A stretch of 44,253 bases of DNA from a virus: IMG/VR virus record IMGVR_UViG_3300025151_000077, positions 1 through 44,253 of that record, one strand, 5' to 3'. Below the pieces are notes generated by a model, which made no database searches, had not been told where the DNA came from, and was given only the letters and a program-made list of their open reading frames with translations. Below are positions 36,459-43,270 of the stretch, piece after piece. Positions within the stretch are counted from its first letter, which is position 1. Each line of letters opens with the position of its first letter. The translations under genes and the position numbers were made by a program.

Positions 36459-37004
36459 CTATAACCTTTTTCTTTTTTGATATGCTATTCTTTGAGCTTC
36501 TTTATACTTCTCATCTCTTTCCCATGATTTCTTATTTTCATCCAAATCCATCCATACCAAATTACTTATATGATTATCGTGTTTATTCCTATTCTTATGT
36601 TCCACTGAATTATATTCATGGGGGTTTGGTATGAATGTCTCTGCTACAAGATTATGAATGTTTGCTTTTATTTGTTTCACAAACTTTCCATTCTCATCTT
36701 TAATAGAAACATTAATGCTCGGATATTGATATTGCTTCCCCCTTGGATTTCCACGTAAATGAGTATTCAATTCAATTAATCCATACTCGTTTAATGGTAC
36801 GTTCCTATCACATCTTCCAGGTGCTCGATATGGTTTCCCCTCCTCACTGATATAATACCCAGGGTATTTTGTCTCTTTTATATTCTCCGGAATTTTTATT
36901 TCTGGATATACTGGAGGTTTTAATTTATTATCCACTCCATACTTTTTTCTTTGATAGTATAAGCGTTTCCATTCTTTCTGCTTTTCTGGATCCTTATATG
37001 GCAT
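36459..37004 (-). CDS. HNH homing endonuclease, 181 aa
   Basis: A free-standing homing endonuclease that would cut a DNA site in related phages. The catalytic HNH core is IHNLVAETFIPNP (116-128), then VEHKNRNKHDNHISNLVW (134-151), with His117, His136 and Asn148 as the key residues. The N-terminus PYKDPEKQKEWKRLYYQ is a common basic leader of such phage enzymes. It lies between a strong promoter with a long leader and the 62-residue gene. Its AT-rich, A-biased codon use fits a mobile gene. Its ribosome-binding sequence repeats that of the next gene. Confidence 0.9.
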   Translation of the reverse strand: MPYKDPEKQKEWKRLYYQRKKYGVDNKLKPPVYPEIKIPENIKETKYPGYYISEEGKPYRAPGRCDRNVPLNEYGLIELNTHLRGNPRGKQYQYPSINVSIKDENGKFVKQIKANIHNLVAETFIPNPHEYNSVEHKNRNKHDNHISNLVWMDLDENKKSWERDEKYKEAQRIAYQKRKRL

Positions 37005-37208: not shown

Positions 37209-37463
37209 TCAGAATTCTTCCAACATTTCATTCAGTTCATTGATATTCAGATCAGCGTGCTTCCAATACACACCATCAGGAGTAACTGCACCGAAAGTTT
37301 CTACTAACTGGTGCGACAGAGACTTATAACCATGCTCCGCAAACATACGCGCAAAGTTATACATAGTCTCATCATTTCCCAACCACAGAGCAACATTCCA
37401 GGTCTCATAATTTGCCCAACCGTTGTAAGTTTGAGCGGTCATGTCTGTCGAAGTGATGTTCAT
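37209..37463 (-). CDS. Small conserved protein with YNGWxNYETWNVALW signature (DUF7249-like), 84 aa
   Basis: The line NGWANYETWNVALWLGNDE (about residues 14-32) is the signature of a small family found in cyanophages, other phages and some bacteria. The function is not known. The start ATG at 37463 is the last triplet of repeat copy 1; there is no Shine-Dalgarno in front of it. The gene lies between two host-type promoters, suggesting early expression. Confidence 0.85.
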   Translation of the reverse strand: MNITSTDMTAQTYNGWANYETWNVALWLGNDETMYNFARMFAEHGYKSLSHQLVETFGAVTPDGVYWKHADLNINELNEMLEEF

Positions 37464-37492
37464 ACTACTGAGACACTTTACAGGCTTCAGTT
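37461..37492 (-). repeat. 32-base upstream element, copy 1
   Basis: On the minus strand it reads AACTGAAGCCTGTAAAGTGT followed by CTCAGTAGTATG; the final ATG is the start codon of the 84-residue gene. It shares the core AACTGAAGCC-nnn-AAA-n-TGT with seven other copies. Confidence 0.9.
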
Positions 37493-37517
37493 ACTATCAC
37501 CCACCACTGACAAACTA

Positions 37518-37691
37518 TCACCAACGACCAGGATTTGACAGGTCTTCGATATACGCATCACAAGACTCATTACCCTCCAATTTGAATAACTTTTCCCAGT
37601 TAATCTGATGAGGGTCAAAGTCTGCTAGTGCTTCAATTTCCAGAGTGATGCGATACTTACTCTTTTGAGACTGGTGATAGACTGTCGGCAT
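37518..37691 (-). CDS. Small conserved cyanophage protein, 57 aa
   Basis: The product begins MPTVYHQSQKSKYRITLEIE and ends YIEDLSNPGRW. I recall near-identical small proteins in other cyanomyoviruses, without function. The ATG at 37691 follows a CAGGGAG Shine-Dalgarno, and a strong host-type promoter lies 29 bases upstream, so this gene is well supported despite its size. It is probably among the early transcripts. Confidence 0.82.
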   Translation of the reverse strand: MPTVYHQSQKSKYRITLEIEALADFDPHQINWEKLFKLEGNESCDAYIEDLSNPGRW

Positions 37692-37720
37692 TTGTGAGAC
37701 TCCCTGAGTGATACTTTACT

Positions 37721-37749
37721 AGTATAGAATAACAGAGAGGAACTGTCAA
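37721..37749 (-). promoter_or_regulatory. Host-type promoter before the 57-residue gene
   Basis: TTGACA (37744-37749), a 17-base spacer and TATACT (37721-37726) form a near-consensus promoter. Transcription would begin about 23 bases upstream of the start codon, just ahead of a Shine-Dalgarno. Confidence 0.8.
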
Positions 37750-37761
37750 TAATACTCTCAG

Positions 37762-37769
37762 TATTTATT
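37762..37769 (-). promoter_or_regulatory. Late-type motif AATAAATA next to an early promoter
   Basis: A perfect late octamer lies 12 bases upstream of the host-type -35 box. If used, it would let the 57-residue and following genes be transcribed late as well as early. It may be chance in AT-rich sequence. Confidence 0.35.
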
Positions 37770-38032
37770 AGCAAGTCTGATAGTTTTGTGTTGTCAATCC
37801 CTGGTAAAACTTATCTCCGCCCGGTTGACATTTCTGCGCGTTCGTGATAGACTGCTCGCTAAGATCACAACGTCTGAGAGCATTAAAATCACTACAAATA
37901 CGCCCCAGAGTAACTACGAAGACACTGCTAAGTAACTCCATTTCCAACAATGTTAAACACGATACAAACAACGCAAATACATTTTTTAATACATTTTTAA
38001 TATAAAAAAAGGGTAATCTTTATCTATAATAG
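37770..38032. other. Intergenic region of about 260 bases without a supported gene
   Basis: I see no convincing gene here: the longest minus-strand frame needs a TTG start and has no ribosome-binding site. The half near 37800-37900 is richer in G and C than its surroundings. It contains a possible plus-strand promoter (37825-37853). The end near 37980-38030 is AT-rich and includes AATACATTTTT twice. It separates the terminator of the 48-residue gene from the promoter of the 57-residue gene. Confidence 0.5.
37825..37853 (+). promoter_or_regulatory. Possible plus-strand host-type promoter
   Basis: TTGACA (37825-37830), a 17-base spacer and TAGACT (37848-37853) lie on the plus strand, opposite to all genes. 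A transcript would run about 200 bases to the hairpin at 38037-38061, whose plus-strand T-run is weak. No plus-strand gene follows, so any product would be a short RNA. Confidence 0.35.
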
Positions 38033-38061
38033 CAAAAAAGGGGCATTTTTTGTGCCCCTTT
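38033..38061 (-). terminator. Intrinsic terminator after the 48-residue gene
   Basis: A nine-base stem (AAAGGGGCA / TGCCCCTTT) with a seven-base loop is followed by a run of six T on the minus strand. It lies eight bases after the stop of the 48-residue gene. It ends the transcript of the early small-gene block coming from higher coordinates. Confidence 0.92.
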
Positions 38062-38068
38062 CTTATTA

Positions 38069-38215
38069 TCAGAAGTTTACAGGTTGACCGCTGAAGTCTA
38101 CTGCGTCAGAGGAAATACTCTCCTTTTCAGTGTCAGTAATGCTGTCAAGAATTTGAAGCATTTGATCACCGTTCTGAGCAATTTTCAGCATACCGATGAG
38201 AACTTCTTTAGACAT
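38069..38215 (-). CDS. Small conserved cyanophage protein, 48 aa
   Basis: The product begins MSKEVLIGMLKIAQNGDQML, continues ILDSI, and ends VDFSGQPVNF. I recall this pattern (a short helix-forming N-terminus and a C-terminal PVxF) as a very common small protein of T4-like cyanophages, without function. It is the last gene before the intrinsic terminator, which supports its reality. No clear Shine-Dalgarno precedes the ATG. Confidence 0.78.
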   Translation of the reverse strand: MSKEVLIGMLKIAQNGDQMLQILDSITDTEKESISSDAVDFSGQPVNF

Positions 38216-38338
38216 GAGTTGTTGTTAGTTAGAGTGAAATGTGAGCAGTTTATAGTGTTACTCAGCACTTGGTTAAATCTAGGTCTTACGTTGTGAATCA
38301 GTCTCCCAATTCTGTACTGCCTAGATGTAAGTTAGGAC

Positions 38339-38686
38339 TCAGGCAAAGACATAACCAGACTCAAAATCTTCGGTTACGAATACACTTTCGCCATTGATTG
38401 CACCAGCAAACTTTCTCACATACCAAGCGAAGTTTTTCTGAAAAACACCTTCGCCAGCAATGCAGAAAGTATCACACAGAGCGTTCAATCGCGACTTAGT
38501 GGTGTTACTTTGCCAACCACCATCATAAATGGTCATGTCATTATCTGTCACAGTAGCAATCAGATTGCCGTGAAGATAAACAGAGGAAGTGTTAGTCTCC
38601 TCATCAATCGTAACCGTAGTGTTACCAGAACTCCAGTTCTTATTAGACTGAACTGCCTGGCACATTTGGGATTCGATCTTACGCAT
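38339..38686 (-). CDS. Conserved cyanophage protein with GGWQSNTTKSRLNAL signature, 115 aa
   Basis: The product has a beta-rich N-terminal half (VTIDEETNTSSVYLHGNLIA, about residues 25-44), the signature DGGWQSNTTKSRLNAL (about 55-70), and a second half with GVFQKNFAWYVRKF. I recall it as widely conserved among cyanomyoviruses and of unknown function; I see no catalytic motif. Its start is about 30 bases downstream of repeat copy 2, with no Shine-Dalgarno. Confidence 0.82.
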   Translation of the reverse strand: MRKIESQMCQAVQSNKNWSSGNTTVTIDEETNTSSVYLHGNLIATVTDNDMTIYDGGWQSNTTKSRLNALCDTFCIAGEGVFQKNFAWYVRKFAGAINGESVFVTEDFESGYVFA

Positions 38687-38715
38687 TTGGAAAAGTGTTG
38701 GGGGTTGTGTGTCCT

Positions 38716-38747
38716 TACACTATAGGGACACTTTACAGGCTTCAGTT
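38716..38747 (-). repeat. 32-base upstream element, copy 2
   Basis: On the minus strand it has AACTGAAGCCTGTAAAGTGT then CCCTATAGTGTA. Here the element does not end in ATG; the start codon of the 115-residue gene is 30 bases further on. Confidence 0.85.
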
Positions 38748-38821
38748 AGTATTACTGAGGTTGATTGATACTAATGATCAAAAAATCCGGAACGCTGCGC
38801 TACTCGGAAACCCTCGGTAAG

Positions 38822-39058
38822 TTATACTGACTCTTGAAGATCTTTCCAAGTTTCATCATCATACAAATAAAGAACTTCTTCTTTAACATCTACTTCGTCC
38901 CATTTTTCCATATCATTCATGAGACTATCAAGTGCAAATTGTACGAGAGTATCCATATCCATCCCATCAACAATCAGGTTGGCATAGTTCTCTTTAAGTT
39001 TGTTAAGTTGCTCTTGATTCATGATGTTTGGGTCAGTAGAAAATGAAACGAAAGACAT
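38822..39058 (-). CDS. Small conserved cyanophage protein, 78 aa
   Basis: The core MNQEQLNKLKENYANLIVDG (13-32), then MDMDTLVQFALDSL, and the acidic C-terminal VKEEVLYLYDDETWKDL form a small helical protein that I recall from many marine cyanophages. The start at 39058 overlaps the stop of the previous gene (TAATG), suggesting coupled translation. Recalled homologues often begin at the internal Met13 (39022), which remains an alternative. Function is unknown. Confidence 0.8.
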   Translation of the reverse strand: MSFVSFSTDPNIMNQEQLNKLKENYANLIVDGMDMDTLVQFALDSLMNDMEKWDEVDVKEEVLYLYDDETWKDLQESV

Positions 39059-39243
39059 TAGTTAGTGGGAAAGTTTTTACAGACTGCATCACACAGTTGA
39101 CGAATTACATCATCTTTATATTCAACCTCTCCAAAGTTTGATTCAATAATACAATCAATGTCCTCCATAAGTTGTTCACGTTGAGTCAACATTTCAAGTC
39201 GGTCCATCATTTTGTTGTGAAGATAAGATTTGATTAGTGACAT
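39058..39243 (-). CDS. Small helical cyanophage protein, 61 aa
   Basis: The product begins MSLIKSYLHNKMMDRLEMLT and ends LCDAVCKNFPTN. It is helical and acidic, and I recall it beside the 78-residue protein in other cyanophages. A GGGGTGA Shine-Dalgarno lies before the ATG, and the gene starts three bases after the stop of the previous one. The pair with the next gene is overlapped by one base pair of codons (TAATG). Function is unknown. Confidence 0.8.
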   Translation of the reverse strand: MSLIKSYLHNKMMDRLEMLTQREQLMEDIDCIIESNFGEVEYKDDVIRQLCDAVCKNFPTN

Positions 39244-39246
39244 AAA

Positions 39247-39519
39247 TCACCCCACACATGCAAGAGGCATGAACTCAGAGCGAGGCAGTTTTTCAGTGTT
39301 AAAGTCAGTCACTTCTGCACCTTTAGCAATACGCGCTTGCCAATCATATTTTGCTTCAATGCCAAGAACTGTGCTATAAGATTTTTGACCAGTAGCACGA
39401 AACTTAACGCGGCGGATAAAACGTTTGACAACAACTTTCATGCCTTTGATCTCATCTGCCTCAGCAATAAATGCCTCGGGAAAGTAATCAACAATGACAG
39501 CAGAATTGGTGACTTGCAT
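39247..39519 (-). CDS. Conserved cyanophage protein, 90 aa
   Basis: The product is a mixed protein with a basic beta-like centre (GMKVVVKRFIRRVKFRATGQ, about residues 26-45) and an end EFMPLACVG. I recognise no domain. The start at 39519 lies 28 bases beyond repeat copy 3. The untranslated stretch in between is pyrimidine-rich and lacks a Shine-Dalgarno. Function is unknown. Confidence 0.75.
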   Translation of the reverse strand: MQVTNSAVIVDYFPEAFIAEADEIKGMKVVVKRFIRRVKFRATGQKSYSTVLGIEAKYDWQARIAKGAEVTDFNTEKLPRSEFMPLACVG

Positions 39520-39546
39520 GTGAGAAAAGAAAAATGAATCGGTGCC

Positions 39547-39578
39547 TATACTATAGAAACACTTTGGGGGCTTCAGTT
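39547..39578 (-). repeat. 32-base upstream element, copy 3
   Basis: On the minus strand it has AACTGAAGCCCCCAAAGTGT then TTCTATAGTATA. The ATG position is replaced by ATA, and the start codon of the 90-residue gene lies 28 bases further on. Confidence 0.88.
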
Positions 39579-39579
39579 A

Positions 39580-39864
39580 TTAAACCTCTGAAAGTTCTTG
39601 TTGTTGTAACATCAACTGCTCTTCAGTTACTTCATCAACACACTCCTGAATTACGGTGTAGATGTAATCATTGTTGCCAACTTCATTGAAGATTCTTTCT
39701 GCCAATTCAGGATTATCAAGAGCAGGATATTCAATGTTGTCATCTTCATCAATAATATAACAATCTTCCTTGGTGTAAATCCATGCACCACAATCTGCAT
39801 CTTCTCCCTGTTGTTCGATGAGTTTGTTGACGCGATCTTTGAGTTCTTTGAGTGTGTAGTTCAT
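39580..39864 (-). CDS. Acidic conserved cyanophage protein, 94 aa
   Basis: The product is strongly acidic (CYIIDEDDNIEYPALDNPEL, about residues 35-54) with a helical N-terminus (LKELKDRVNKLIEQQG) and a Gln-rich end (LMLQQQELSEV). I recall homologues in cyanophages without function. Its ATG overlaps the stop of the 57-residue gene (TGATG), so translation is likely coupled. Confidence 0.78.
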   Translation of the reverse strand: MNYTLKELKDRVNKLIEQQGEDADCGAWIYTKEDCYIIDEDDNIEYPALDNPELAERIFNEVGNNDYIYTVIQECVDEVTEEQLMLQQQELSEV

Positions 39865-40037
39865 CAGTCTTCGATGGTGATAGAGTGAATTACAAAGTTG
39901 GGATTGAGACGATTACATGTAGCAATCGCTTCTTCTTTTGTTGCTTTGATGTAACCCAAACAGTCATTCATAATCCAACCGTTTGCGCGATGGAATTGAC
40001 CGTGAAGAAGGAATTTAGTCTCTTGAGTGTTGTTCAT
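39864..40037 (-). CDS. Small protein, 57 aa, starting at repeat copy 4
   Basis: The product begins MNNTQETKFLLHGQFHRANG and contains WIMNDCLGYIKATKEEAIAT, then CNRLNPNFVIHSITIED. The block KATKEEAIATCNRLNPNF resembles small phage proteins with a beta-alpha unit that I have seen in cyanophages. It is supported by its start at the end of a 32-base element and by the one-base overlap with the next gene. Function is unknown. Confidence 0.75.
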   Translation of the reverse strand: MNNTQETKFLLHGQFHRANGWIMNDCLGYIKATKEEAIATCNRLNPNFVIHSITIED

Positions 40038-40066
40038 ACTACTGGGACACTTTAGGGGCTTCAGTT
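40035..40066 (-). repeat. 32-base upstream element, copy 4
   Basis: On the minus strand it reads AACTGAAGCCCCTAAAGTGT then CCCAGTAGTATG; the last triplet is the start codon of the 57-residue gene. Confidence 0.9.
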
Positions 40067-40079
40067 ACTAAACCTCCGA

Positions 40080-40301
40080 TTACATGCCATTCATAAACTC
40101 GTGAATCGCTTCGTTATATTCTTCTTCAGTCTGATAAGTGCGACCGTGAATTGTATATGGAAACGTTTTCTTTTGAAACATCGTAGACGCAGTTTCTACG
40201 TCTTTTCGATCATATCCCATCTCGACAAGATTTTCGACGTAAGGATTAGTAATGCTCATAAGTTCAGAAAAAAGTGGATAAGTTTTGATAAAATCAGACA
40301 T
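40080..40301 (-). CDS. Small conserved protein, 73 aa
   Basis: The start is the ATG at 40301 because a GAGGAG Shine-Dalgarno stands ten bases before it and the overlap with the previous gene is then only eight bases; a longer frame would overlap it by over 100. The product begins MSDFIKTYPLFSELMSITNP and ends YNEAIHEFMNGM. The piece MGYDRKDVETASTMF looks like a short helix pair. No domain is recognised. Confidence 0.78.
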   Translation of the reverse strand: MSDFIKTYPLFSELMSITNPYVENLVEMGYDRKDVETASTMFQKKTFPYTIHGRTYQTEEEYNEAIHEFMNGM

Positions 40302-40509
40302 CGATAAAGTTCTCCTCAGCAACCTTTTCCCATGCTTCATAGAACATATCCCATGCTTCTTTATTATCAACGAAAGAATCAATTTCTGCAATCTCGCAGA
40401 CATAATCGTAGCACATATCCAGATCAGGATTCATTTCATAAAAGAATCCAGACATGGACTCCAAAGCATCAGTGAAAGCGGTGCTGATTTGCGTTTGTGT
40501 GTTCTTCAT
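40294..40509 (-). CDS. Small acidic protein, 71 aa
   Basis: The product is acidic and rich in aromatic residues (DMCYDYVCEIAEIDSFVDNK, about residues 30-49; EAWDMFYEAWEKVAEENF). I recognise no domain. Its start is the ATG that ends repeat copy 5, with MKNT as first residues. The same first four residues begin the 297-residue gene at copy 8. It overlaps the next gene by eight bases. Confidence 0.75.
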   Translation of the reverse strand: MKNTQTQISTAFTDALESMSGFFYEMNPDLDMCYDYVCEIAEIDSFVDNKEAWDMFYEAWEKVAEENFIDV

Positions 40510-40538
40510 ACTACTAGGACACTTTAGGGGCTTCAGTT
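40507..40538 (-). repeat. 32-base upstream element, copy 5
   Basis: On the minus strand it reads AACTGAAGCCCCTAAAGTGT then CCTAGTAGTATG; the last triplet starts the 71-residue gene. Confidence 0.9.
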
Positions 40539-40546
40539 TCTAATCC

Positions 40547-40687
40547 TTAGAACTTTGCTGTCACTCCTATTACTTTTGCATTAGGATTGCGTGCTAATGC
40601 AACTTCTCTTGCCTCTTGATAATCTTTCGCATATACTTCCTCAGCGAAAACTTTTCCTGCAACGTACAACTTTACTTCGCATTTCAT
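40547..40687 (-). CDS. Small conserved cyanophage protein, 46 aa
   Basis: The product begins MKCEVKLYVAGKVFAEEVYA and ends NPNAKVIGVTAKF. This beta-alpha-beta peptide is one that I recall, nearly unchanged, in many T4-like cyanophages; it resembles half of a small ferredoxin-like unit. The start at 40687 overlaps the stop of the membrane-protein gene (ATGA), supporting coupled translation. Function is unknown. Confidence 0.82.
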   Translation of the reverse strand: MKCEVKLYVAGKVFAEEVYAKDYQEAREVALARNPNAKVIGVTAKF

Positions 40688-40908
40688 GATAAACCAAACC
40701 CAAATAATTTACTAGAAGAAATACACAATAAGAAAACTAACATAATGACAACATCCCAGGACTTTGTTCGTATAAAGAATGGAATGGAAATTGCATCACC
40801 AATGAAGTTTAATGTCACCCCAAATGTGAGATCAATGTGTAAAATAACAAAATAGGCAACGATTACAAGAACTGAACCAATAACCCTGCCTATTGTATCA
40901 ATTTTCAT
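40684..40908 (-). CDS. Small membrane protein, 74 aa
   Basis: Two to three hydrophobic segments are visible: about residues 8-24 (VIGSVLVIVAYFVILHI), about 27-45, and about 50-65 (VVIMLVFLLCISSS). FIRTKSWDV lies between the last two. I recall a conserved cyanophage membrane protein of this type, without known function. The start is the ATG at 40908; an upstream TTG in frame would overlap the previous gene and is not needed. It overlaps the next gene by ATGA. Confidence 0.8.
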   Translation of the reverse strand: MKIDTIGRVIGSVLVIVAYFVILHIDLTFGVTLNFIGDAISIPFFIRTKSWDVVIMLVFLLCISSSKLFGFGLS

Positions 40909-40910
40909 AA

Positions 40911-41078
40911 TTACCAAATGTTAGTCCAACGCTTGTGATTTGCTTTGCTAATTCTACCTTCTTTCAACATGTTGTCGCAAACATTACAAAAGACTTGAAA
41001 CTTTTCCTCTCGGGTGAGAGTATCTGCACCGTCACATTTTGACATGACGTTGAGCATTTGTGCTTTGTTAGTGATCAT
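40911..41078 (-). CDS. Small protein with CxxC pair, 55 aa
   Basis: The start is the ATG at 41078, overlapping the stop of the previous gene (ATGA). The product begins MITNKAQMLNVMSKCDGADT and ends SKANHKRWTNIW. It holds Cys15, Cys31 and Cys34 (FCNVCDN), a possible partial metal site. I recognise small cyanophage proteins of this kind with KFxxFCxVxDxxLKxGRIxxxxHxRWTxIW. Function is unknown. Confidence 0.75.
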   Translation of the reverse strand: MITNKAQMLNVMSKCDGADTLTREEKFQVFCNVCDNMLKEGRISKANHKRWTNIW

Positions 41079-41245
41079 TCTGAAAGTGGGGATTCGCGTT
41101 TGCAATCAGCAGGGTATTTTGAGAGTCCTAAGACTGCTTCAAGGTATGGGGGAAGTTTCTCAAATTCCTGCCCATCTGACTCGGAATTGTACCAAAAGTC
41201 TTCCCAATCTTTGGGAGAGTTTGTTACATCTTCGATGTTACTCAT
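41075..41245 (-). CDS. Small acidic protein, 56 aa
   Basis: The product begins MSNIEDVTNSPKDWEDFWYN and continues ...FEKLPPYLEAVLGLSKYPAD. It is acidic and aromatic-rich with no recognised domain. It is supported mainly by position: its ATG overlaps the stop of the gene before it and its stop overlaps the ATG of the next (both ATGA), filling what would otherwise be a gap in a tight gene chain. Confidence 0.7.
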   Translation of the reverse strand: MSNIEDVTNSPKDWEDFWYNSESDGQEFEKLPPYLEAVLGLSKYPADCKRESPLSE

Positions 41246-41430
41246 GGCAATAGTTTAACGTCGATTTCTTTCCAGTTAGGATACTGCTTCATGGCATAGT
41301 TTTCCAGTCTGGTGTTATGATTCTTAATGCCCTTAGATGTTTTTGGACGTGTGGGCATTGTCCTCAAAAATGATAGTGTACCCTCATCAGTTGTCACTGA
41401 AACTTGATAAGTTGCTGTTGTTGTTTTCAT
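41242..41430 (-). CDS. Small basic protein, 62 aa
   Basis: The product begins with a beta-like N-terminus (TTTATYQVSVTTDEGTLSFL) and continues into a basic stretch (TRPKTSKGIKNHNTRLENYA) and YPNWKEIDVKLLP. No domain is recognised. Both ends overlap neighbours by ATGA. Function is unknown. Confidence 0.72.
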   Translation of the reverse strand: MKTTTATYQVSVTTDEGTLSFLRTMPTRPKTSKGIKNHNTRLENYAMKQYPNWKEIDVKLLP

Positions 41431-41648
41431 CTGAGAACGTGACGATAATCAATGGATTTGATACACCAACCTGATGCACATGTGATTTCTTCGATGAGAT
41501 CATCCTCATCACATGCTTCCCAGGTTGTTGACATCGTTTCGTCAACTATTTCACGTTTGTAATCATCAGTAAGGAAATCATCCATTGTATCTCCATCACC
41601 AATATCATCGGTGAAATCAAACTCAATTTGTGTTACTTGGAATTGCAT
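41427..41648 (-). CDS. Acidic conserved cyanophage protein, 73 aa
   Basis: The opening MQFQVTQIEFDFTDDIGDGD, the block EACDEDDLIEEITCASGWCI and the end SIDYRHVLR are familiar from a widespread small cyanophage protein of unknown function. The ATG at 41648 stands seven bases after a GGAGG Shine-Dalgarno; an in-frame TTG one codon earlier is not needed. It overlaps the next gene by ATGA. Confidence 0.82.
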   Translation of the reverse strand: MQFQVTQIEFDFTDDIGDGDTMDDFLTDDYKREIVDETMSTTWEACDEDDLIEEITCASGWCIKSIDYRHVLR

Positions 41649-41651
41649 CAA

Positions 41652-41894
41652 TCAACCTCCGTAGACTTCTTCTGCCATGGGAGTGTCACTCATGCGATCA
41701 AGATGATCCCACAAAGTATTCTTCTCACCGAACATTTCCTCATAAAGATCAATGTTCTGACGATCGTATTCAGACTTAACTGCCATGATCTCAGTTTCGA
41801 TCCATGCAAGTTCCATACGCTTTTGATCAAGTTTTTTGCGAAGATCGTAGAGTTTTTGGTTGCGTTCGGTGAGAGTCATTTTAGTTGTGCTCAT
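41652..41894 (-). CDS. Small coiled-coil protein, 80 aa
   Basis: Residues 8-45 are a charged coiled coil (ERNQKLYDLRKKLDQKRMEL, then AWIETEIMAVKSEYDRQN). The remainder is acidic (YEEMFGEKNTLWDHLDRM). The start ATG is the last triplet of repeat copy 6. No function is recognised; the coiled coil suggests oligomerisation or partner binding. Confidence 0.75.
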   Translation of the reverse strand: MSTTKMTLTERNQKLYDLRKKLDQKRMELAWIETEIMAVKSEYDRQNIDLYEEMFGEKNTLWDHLDRMSDTPMAEEVYGG

Positions 41895-41923
41895 ACTATA
41901 GGGACACTTTGGGGGCTTCAGTT
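41892..41923 (-). repeat. 32-base upstream element, copy 6
   Basis: On the minus strand it reads AACTGAAGCCCCCAAAGTGT then CCCTATAGTATG; the last triplet starts the 80-residue gene. Confidence 0.9.
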
Positions 41924-41927
41924 TTAA

Positions 41928-42314
41928 TCAACGAACATACAAATATCCACCTGCCCAATCTGCACGGGCAAAACATTCTTCGCGAGACTCAATCATCAGA
42001 AGATTGTAACGAACAATCTTTGCAGGTGCTTTGTATGATGCGGGTTTGTAAACTTCACCTGACTTCTTATCAACAAAGGCATGAACACTTTTGCTTTGAG
42101 ATTCAGTCTCCATCACAATTTTGTGATACTTACGTCCACTTTCGATGTAGAACTTGTAGGGATCAGAGTTAGGATGACGACGATTAAAATCATTCTCCAA
42201 TGCTTCACACAGCATCAGAGTATATTTACGCACATTCAGTTGAATCTCGTTGCGTGCATCTTGCGTGGCAACGTAGTCAGCGAAGGATTGAGTGGTCATG
42301 GAATCGGTGCTCAT
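41928..42314 (-). CDS. Conserved cyanophage protein, 128 aa
   Basis: The product has a helical N-terminal half (ARNEIQLNVRKYTLMLCEAL, about residues 20-39) and a beta-like second half with YIESGRKYHKIVMETESQSK, then SVHAFVDKKSGEVYKPASYK and ARADWAGGYLYVR. I recall homologues across cyanophages and related phages where the pattern VHAFVDxxTGxVYKPASWK is conserved. No catalytic residues are evident. The start ATG ends repeat copy 7. Confidence 0.8.
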   Translation of the reverse strand: MSTDSMTTQSFADYVATQDARNEIQLNVRKYTLMLCEALENDFNRRHPNSDPYKFYIESGRKYHKIVMETESQSKSVHAFVDKKSGEVYKPASYKAPAKIVRYNLLMIESREECFARADWAGGYLYVR

Positions 42315-42343
42315 GTAACTAGGACAGTTTAGGGGCTTCAGTT
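42312..42343 (-). repeat. 32-base upstream element, copy 7
   Basis: On the minus strand it reads AACTGAAGCCCCTAAACTGT then CCTAGTTACATG; the last triplet starts the 128-residue gene. It has C for G in the AAAGTG part, as in copy 8. Confidence 0.9.
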
Positions 42344-42347
42344 TTAA

Positions 42348-43241
42348 TTACCAAGTCTTTTCCATGATAAAGTTTGCACGGGAAAACTCTTCACGATCAA
42401 CAACTTTGAACATGCCATATTTGTTGGTGATGACATAACCTTCATGTAATGTAACTTCTTCACCAATCAAACAACCAATGTCATCACACTCATCAATGAA
42501 GCAGAACAAATCTTCCTTGATAGATGCAACCAACTTCCACAATCGGATCAAGTTGATGTCACAATCAAATTTTTCTGCAATTTCATCTTCATCAATGTAG
42601 TTTTCCCCACGGATGCAGTCATTGATATGTTTTTTGATTTTTGTTGCTTTGTTTGGCGTGACAAACTCACATAGAGTGGACATTTGCTTGGCAAATGCAC
42701 AAACATCTACCAAATCTTCACGATGAGGATGCAAAGCAACTTCAGGTTGGACAAACAAACAAGAATCAGTGCTGATCAGTTTGTTAGTCAAAGGTGCTGC
42801 TTTTACAGTTCGCAGATCAACACCAAAATACAAAGTATGAGGTGCAATGATAATATCTTCCGATACTATTTGAGGGAAGACATAAGTAATCGTATTGGGG
42901 CGAAAAGTATCACTACCACCATACCCAATAAAATCACCCTGAATAATGGATTGAGTGCGAGGCAAACAATCAAAGCAAGCATGAAGAATACGAGCAACTT
43001 TGCCTTCGTGATTCTTGTCAATTTCTTCATGTGAATGATTGATCTTGATTTTTACTTTGTTGAAGACAGATTTAGTGCCAACAAAGAATGTACCAGTCGC
43101 AGGATCTGTGCCCCAAACAATAGCAGGAGCGCCATCCATTTTGGTGCTGATAATACTATCCGACTCACCGAACCAATCAAGAACTGAAAGGTCTCCAGTC
43201 AGAATAGAATCTTCAGGATGTTGCAAATGAGTGTTCTTCAT
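42348..43241 (-). CDS. Putative covalent nucleotidyltransferase / RNA ligase-like protein (DUF6267-like), 297 aa
   Basis: The order of motifs matches the ligase/capping-enzyme fold: a lysine motif STKMDGAPA (32-40, candidate nucleotide-binding Lys34), GTKSVFNK (55-62), IIQGDFIGYGG (99-109, motif III-like), LYFGVDLR (137-144, motif IIIa-like), EGYVI (267-271, motif IV) and MFKVV (277-281, motif V). I recall this cyanophage family as DUF6267, without a proved activity. If active it would form a Lys-NMP intermediate and might seal RNA or DNA nicks. The start ATG ends repeat copy 8. The downstream neighbour is the 128-residue gene. Confidence 0.8.
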   Translation of the reverse strand: MKNTHLQHPEDSILTGDLSVLDWFGESDSIISTKMDGAPAIVWGTDPATGTFFVGTKSVFNKVKIKINHSHEEIDKNHEGKVARILHACFDCLPRTQSIIQGDFIGYGGSDTFRPNTITYVFPQIVSEDIIIAPHTLYFGVDLRTVKAAPLTNKLISTDSCLFVQPEVALHPHREDLVDVCAFAKQMSTLCEFVTPNKATKIKKHINDCIRGENYIDEDEIAEKFDCDINLIRLWKLVASIKEDLFCFIDECDDIGCLIGEEVTLHEGYVITNKYGMFKVVDREEFSRANFIMEKTW

Positions 43242-43270
43242 ACTACTAGGACAGTTTAGGGGCTTCAGTT
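43239..43270 (-). repeat. 32-base upstream element, copy 8
   Basis: On the minus strand it reads AACTGAAGCCCCTAAACTGT then CCTAGTAGTATG; the last triplet starts the nucleotidyltransferase gene. Confidence 0.9.

Follow-up and report, generated by a model that had tools for sequence, protein, structure and literature searches.

Eight repeats at gene starts in a relative of T4-like Synechococcus phages are best read as early promoters

INTRODUCTION

Elements at early genes are a known kind of feature in cyanophages, and Doron and colleagues, in an abstract of 2016, reportedly described a novel early-gene regulatory element in cyanophage Syn9. Here we analyze an element that occurs eight times in a virus record of 44,253 bases (IMGVR_UViG_3300025151_000077; its whole length is called the window), whose kin are T4-like Synechococcus phages. 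The A of AACTGAAGCC is base 1 of the element, and bases 30–32 are the last triplet of an earlier note on this DNA; an ATG at this place is called ATG30. The Syn9-type element is likewise repeated in the corresponding cluster, where it precedes small genes, and the copies described here share this location, upstream of probably early small genes near helicase, purM, and gp25. Syn9 and phage Bellamy have their own repeated motif, accompanied by a GTGKCAC-like motif some 40 nucleotides (nt) upstream, which differs from the present element in sequence and in its longer spacing:

L233:46300–48640 and L236:1000–3090 (Syn9), and L060 upstream of 8233, 9246, 12503, and 13983 (Bellamy): start-proximal motif, approximately TGTATTMTAWAAGAGTCAAAG.

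Scans of the initial 100 kb of Syn9 and of a 15 kb stretch of Bellamy yielded no element with the present core. Its swappable box and its fusion to the start codon appear to be new.

In the middle (MotA) promoters of T4, a phage-specific box near −30 replaces the −35 box. The element resembles them in having such a box near −30, but the box sequences are unrelated, no box type in our catalogue resembles the MotA box (TGCTT core), and here the start codon coincides with the predicted RNA start. Nor is it a T4-type late promoter, which has TATAAATA at −10, since its consensus is TAGTRT and its copies lie in small-gene, probably early, clusters only. According to PMC5780444, neither T4-like middle promoters nor motA and/or asiA are present in T4-like cyanophages. 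The element bears on how such phages take over transcription without MotA and AsiA.

Genes without a leader usually retain, some 10 bp ahead of the start, a TA box that resembles a −10. With leaderless bacterial promoters (PMC3160421, PMC4633059) the element would share a start codon at the RNA 5′ end; its −10 place, in contrast, reads GTCC, and no −10 box is found 7–12 bp before the start codon, where bases 18–23 are YGTCCY. The nearest analogue in layout is the SAS/ESAS of Cluster K mycobacteriophages, which is repeated in one orientation directly at the starts of non-structural genes and joins a conserved module to an upstream module whose consensus varies by subcluster (PMC3203893). In contrast to the present element, SAS contains a Shine–Dalgarno core 3–7 bp before the start and the ESAS module is an inverted repeat; the pertinent passages claim no promoter role (PMC3203893). 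The present element carries the ATG inside itself; the SAS core was found in 0 of 101 ATG30 copies. The stoperators of Cluster A mycobacteriophages are also numerous asymmetric phage binding sites, but they stop elongation under the immunity repressor (PMC9283540, PMC6550527); the sites described here, which belong to lytic T4-like phages, occur at gene starts only.

RESULTS

Eight copies of one element in the window

Inspection of the window alone had suggested eight elements of exactly 32 bases. We recovered all eight as one unit, all on the minus strand and with the spacing fixed at 32 bases, and they are best read from their sequence as early promoters that would start the message at or beside the start codon. 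The pattern AACTGAAGCCNNNAAASTGT had eight exact matches in the window, on the minus strand only. With 3 mismatches allowed, shuffles gave a mean of 0.19 matches and a maximum of 2, so that the eight copies are not due to chance. The copies and the two conserved boxes are as follows:

37461..37492, minus strand: copy 1 (AACTGAAGCCTGTAAAGTGTCTCAGTAGTATG); ATG30 at 37461–37463, second in-frame ATG at codon 8; gene 37209–37463 (DUF7249).
38716..38747, minus strand: copy 2, leadered; gene 38339–38686 (Kyano_Gp96) starts at element position 62.
39547..39578, minus strand: copy 3, leadered; gene 39247–39519 starts at element position 60.
40035..40066, minus strand: copy 4; ATG30 is the sole start of gene 39864–40037.
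40507..40538, minus strand: copy 5; ATG30 is the sole start of gene 40294–40509.
41892..41923, minus strand: copy 6; ATG30 and an in-frame ATG at codon 6; gene 41652–41894.
42312..42343, minus strand: copy 7, with the diverged end AGTTACATG; ATG30 and an in-frame ATG at codon 6; gene 41928–42314 (DUF7717).
43239..43270, minus strand: copy 8; gene 42348–43241 (DUF6267, MKNTHLQHPEDSILTG) has its true start at ATG30.
43262..43270, minus strand: phage-specific 5′ box AACTGAAGC, element bases 1–9, given here for copy 8; the other seven copies have the same box.
43240..43245, minus strand: TAGTAT box, element bases 26–31, running into ATG30, shown for copy 8.

As had been stated, six copies (37461, 40035, 40507, 41892, 42312, and 43239) have ATG30, and in the other two (38716 and 39547) the gene starts downstream. 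A TAGTATG-like end had been ascribed to all copies; copy 42312 instead ends TTACATG. No Shine–Dalgarno-like run stands at any element start of the window, in agreement with the idea that the element replaces the Shine–Dalgarno layout. The contrast with neighboring genes is weaker than claimed: some neighbors do have such a run, but they make up just about one third of the other genes of the window.

The element joins a lineage-specific box to a shared core

A scan of IMG/VR for CTGAAGCC-N3-AAAGTGTC gave 52 stretches with up to 12 copies each; in these relatives, GTA is frequent at bases 30–32, with a gene start some 15–30 bases further on. We collected at least about 770 copies from T4-like cyanophages. 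Their layout is modular, with a 9-base 5′ box, a fixed spacing, and then the common core YYAAAGTGTCC-nnn-TAGTRT, in which T26, A27, and T31 are almost invariant and base 13 is T in just 67%. Comparison of phages, and not the window alone, revealed the phage-specific nature of the box: SynMITS9220M01 has the core of the window behind a different 5′ end, GTTACTCAC. When the core was scanned with a free 5′ end, nearly all contigs among the matches listed had one 9-base box each, and the box varied between contigs. Box types seen were AACTGAAGC (the window), GTTACTCAC, AGGGGGGTC, ATAGCTCAC, GTTAGTAAC, ACTTGGATC, AGGGGGGAC, AACTGTAGC, GTTAGGATC, TAGTGGGCC, and more.

Across the 124 sources with at least 3 copies each, mean identity of the box was 8.6/9 within a source versus 4.1/9 between sources, while that of the core was 20.5/24 versus 18.5/24; many contigs are related and fragments overlap, and our statistics describe the pattern and do not count independent events. 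No more than one mismatch separated 645 of 675 copies from the box of their own source. In some lineages the conserved box reaches about six A/T bases further upstream. The strict core pattern had a single match, by chance, in 257 Gb of cellular genomes, and no relevant mention of CTGAAGCC together with cyanophage was found in the literature searched.

In cultured phages the copies are confined to small-gene clusters

We searched the core in cyanophage genomes, a check that the earlier note had proposed, and all copies of S-SM2, SynMITS9220M01, and S-B05 lay among small genes. A box-free weight matrix run over the whole S-SM2 genome found 10 copies, all with the box AGGGGGGTCG; searching with the box itself brought the total to 13, spanning 42.7–58.5 kb on one strand. 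SynMITS9220M01 has 12 copies at 36.3–50.0 kb, also on one strand. In both phages they are confined to a small-gene cluster of 14–16 kb, with only two weak box-less matches elsewhere. S-B05, scanned over all but its last 8.9 kb, has 14 copies with the box (A/G)TTACTCAC and a changed middle, in which the spacing from box to TAGTRT is kept. Twelve of these are at 31.7–40.4 kb (minus strand) and two at 156–157 kb (plus strand), both being small-gene stretches. The clusters adjoin the early helicase and purM/gp25, and their layout, with general knowledge of Syn9, suggests that they hold early genes. The stop codon of the upstream gene usually lies between about 16 nt before and 6 nt after the start of the box.

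Genes start exactly at base 30 or well beyond it

The distribution of start codons is bimodal. Over 784 copies, the first open ATG was at base 30 in 330, almost never at bases 31–43, and then from base 44 on, with a peak at 45–50. Copies with a single open ATG behaved likewise (102 at base 30, 0 at 31–43, then the peak at 44–50), as did the non-redundant copies with a single candidate (74 at base 30, 0 at 31–43, then the peak). A gene thus starts at exactly base 30 or at least 14 bases beyond it. In 325 of 346 copies (94%), the reading frame from ATG30 stayed open over at least 43 codons, whereas GTA, ATA, and ATC at bases 30–32 were open in just 28–38%; GTG30 was rejected as a start codon, being open in only 2 of 19. 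ATG30 is also under frame selection. It occurred in 170 of 296 copies (57%) when in frame with the downstream gene versus 9 of 202 (4%) when out of frame (p ~1e-38), and in 144 of 270 versus 8 of 181 after removal of redundancy. The open ATG30, the frame selection, and the start distribution together indicate that ribosomes meet base 30. The gap at 31–43 would be expected if an AUG had to be either right at the 5′ end or preceded by a sufficiently long leader.

Comparison of homologues indicated that ATG30 is a true start. In proteins with ATG30 only, the N-terminal residue equals that of leadered homologues in 47 of 76. Where two ATGs are present, the downstream one mostly agrees with leadered homologues and ATG30 adds 5–6 residues. 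In the window, copies 1, 6, and 7 have a second in-frame ATG 5–7 codons after ATG30; the Pfam match begins at residue 10 for copy 1, whose homologue in our locus L001 starts at the second ATG, and at residue 11 for copy 7, and in L035 the homologue of copy 6, with GTA at base 30, uses the downstream ATG as its start. GTA also stands at base 30 in the L014 and L035 homologues of copy 4; these have an ATG further downstream that is lost in the window. At element position 45 of copy 5, ACG in the window stands against ATG in L027, the downstream start being lost and ATG30 left alone. Bellamy gp89, where no element was found, shares its N terminus with the DUF6267 protein of copy 8 (MKNTHLQHPEDSILTG), whose gene is present with a leader in S-B05. 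For the leadered copy 2, Pfam PF23790 spans residues 1–115 of the product.

Shine–Dalgarno-like runs were present in 0 of 101 cases before ATG30 and in 12 of 360 leadered copies. After base 36, leaders are G-poor and CA-rich, with few such runs. In S-SM2, the annotated start is ATG30 at 53466, 54389, and 55323; for SSM2_071 and SSM2_075, homologues suggest an original start 5–6 codons downstream of the annotated ATG30. Annotation is therefore affected, as S-SM2 genes are called from ATG30 even where homologues begin 5–6 codons later.

Some copies stand directly behind terminators

A strong intrinsic terminator was found just upstream of 29 of 669 copies, mostly 0–13 nt away, compared with 6 in the region 300 nt upstream and 0–4 (about 1 on average) in shuffles. 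ATG30 is present in 18 of the 29, alone in 9 and with another start in 9. Unless the terminators are overridden, any mRNA that includes ATG30 here must begin between terminator and base 30. Bases 30–32 are not ATG in more than half of the relatives, and other copies precede leaders without ATG30 or with strong secondary structure. The lack of ATG30 in over half of the relatives and the placement directly after terminators argue that the element must start transcription, and since relatives show ATG30 to be a true start, the RNA should begin at or before it.

DISCUSSION

Promoter reading and alternatives

From these sequences we infer promoter activity, the exact 5′ end, a dedicated factor, and early timing. 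It is fairly likely that the element is an early promoter, probably aimed by a phage factor through the box, with the RNA 5′ end at about base 30. Each element would then be an early-gene promoter of a T4-like cyanophage. The 9–10 bp upstream box would probably be read by a putative phage-encoded DNA-binding factor, each lineage having its box and the matching factor, and the common core with the TAGT-R end would place RNA polymerase so that RNA begins around T29/R30. With ATG at bases 30–32 the mRNA would be leaderless (5′-AUG) or nearly so; otherwise it would carry a leader, 14 bases or longer, that is G-poor and CA-rich and lacks a Shine–Dalgarno. A factor encoded by the phage is the simplest explanation because the private box is found in every copy of a genome. 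More tentatively, and with somewhat less probability than its opposite, a specificity factor delivered with the virion or made at once would redirect the host polymerase through a lineage-private 9–10 bp “password,” the 10–14 copies per genome changing in concert with the factor, and transcription would start exactly at AUG to give leaderless early mRNAs. Co-infecting relatives would in that case not fire each other's early genes.

Several points weigh against the promoter reading with a start at base 30. Such a 5′ end puts the standard −10 place (bases 18–23) on YGTCCY, unlike host promoters, and an unusual recognition mode would therefore be needed. The fixed spacing from box to TAGTRT also agrees with the geometry of a sigma-70 promoter starting around base 37, upstream transcripts could pass the terminators through antitermination, and p-values overstate independence because copies and contigs share descent. 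Comparison of the proteomes of S-SM2, SynMITS9220M01, S-B05, and Syn9 did not yield the cognate factor. We also examined 98 protein families for identity that tracks the box; the best-ranked of them, phrog_2171 (67 aa, with a weak helix-turn-helix match), failed, as L129 has the right box and the wrong allele. Only one of the loci added for phrog_2171 carries at least two elements in its vicinity. No DNA-binding domain above cut-off was found in 20 SynMITS9220M01 proteins searched with Pfam, 10 of which were also searched with PHROGs. Bases 13–18 (YAAAGT) were rejected as a −10 box, S-SM2 often having AAAGCGT and base 13 being poorly conserved.

An ordinary sigma-70-type promoter would have TAGTRT (bases 26–31) as its −10, the box in the −35 region, and RNA from about base 37, with ATG30 used on read-through transcripts only. 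The spacing of box and TAGTRT is indeed that of −35 and −10, also in S-B05 despite its changed middle, and T26, A27, and T31 are nearly invariant, yet we consider this unlikely. Genes with ATG30 only stand directly behind strong terminators, and no starts occur at 31–43 although read-through would permit them. By host SigA standards (TTGACA-like −35, TATAAT-like −10, about 17 bp), a TANNNT-like box is present, but the box upstream of it comes in many unrelated versions and in most phages does not resemble TTGACA. The start-codon statistics also speak against an RNA start 6–8 nt past the −10 box, where a SigA promoter would have it. Moreover, a canonical TTTACA-17-TATAAT lies downstream of the element at the helicase and host-type promoters are used elsewhere, so that the element differs from the host-type promoters of the same phages. 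It had already been noted that a plain host promoter does not explain the layout and that an RNA start downstream of the TAGTAT box would exclude ATG30 from the message; we agree on both.

A processing or translation-start signal in long early transcripts, cleaved between bases 29 and 30 to give 5′-AUG messages, would account for the coupling to the start codon, for the frame selection on ATG30, and for upstream stop codons so close to the box. Copies 0–13 nt after terminators and the many that precede leadered or structured 5′ regions without ATG30 make this quite improbable, and the earlier suggestion of mainly a translation leader or RNA-processing site finds no support. Since the core stays constant across freely varying boxes, the two cannot pair as RNA, and box–core pairing was rejected. 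Least probable of all, in our view, is a stoperator-like repressor operator or a recombination seam that does not itself act as a promoter, the overlap with the start codon being a packing effect. Many identical copies in one orientation would fit it, as would the same gene following many different upstream genes at the element, but it predicts neither the 31–43 gap, nor the conservation of TAGT-R, nor the placement after terminators. The idea that small genes are swapped as cassettes at the element gains indirect support from the DUF6267 gene, which follows 18 different upstream families in 63 copies; this may be a by-product of genes moving with their promoter, and genes do seem to travel together with their element.

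On the promoter reading, the private box points to a DNA-binding factor that co-evolves with it and perhaps keeps co-infecting phages apart; the box could also serve to track this factor down. The fusion to the start codon, if true, would mean widespread leaderless early mRNAs. Copies in the cultured phages S-SM2, SynMITS9220M01, and S-B05 make the defined element testable.

Neighboring features

Downstream of the element and ahead of the GTG with which the early helicase starts, a TTTACA-17-TATAAT promoter-like sequence is conserved (L078, L094, L095, L100, L104, L127, L180, L184, L187, L193, and L232; SynMITS9220M01 at ~42,560–42,610), with TTGACA instead of TTTACA in S-SM2 and L002. Its −35 and spacer form an inverted repeat, AGCACCCTTTACA..TGTAAGGGTGCT, whose pairing is kept in L127. 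A conserved hairpin before the helicase was rejected as an interpretation, as the alignment shows the canonical-looking promoter. The region is possibly a tandem of early and middle promoters with an operator.

A structured stretch, CCTGCnnC..CACTAAAC, follows copies in L071 (oriented index 2645), L163 (2167), and L165 (1280), and ends in a T run in L071. Transcription from the element may here yield a structured leader or a small non-coding RNA. In the window, a gene at 36459–37004 (minus strand), placed between the structural genes and the element cluster, weakly matches HNH_3 endonuclease, with an E value of 0.0012 that falls short of the Pfam cut-off.

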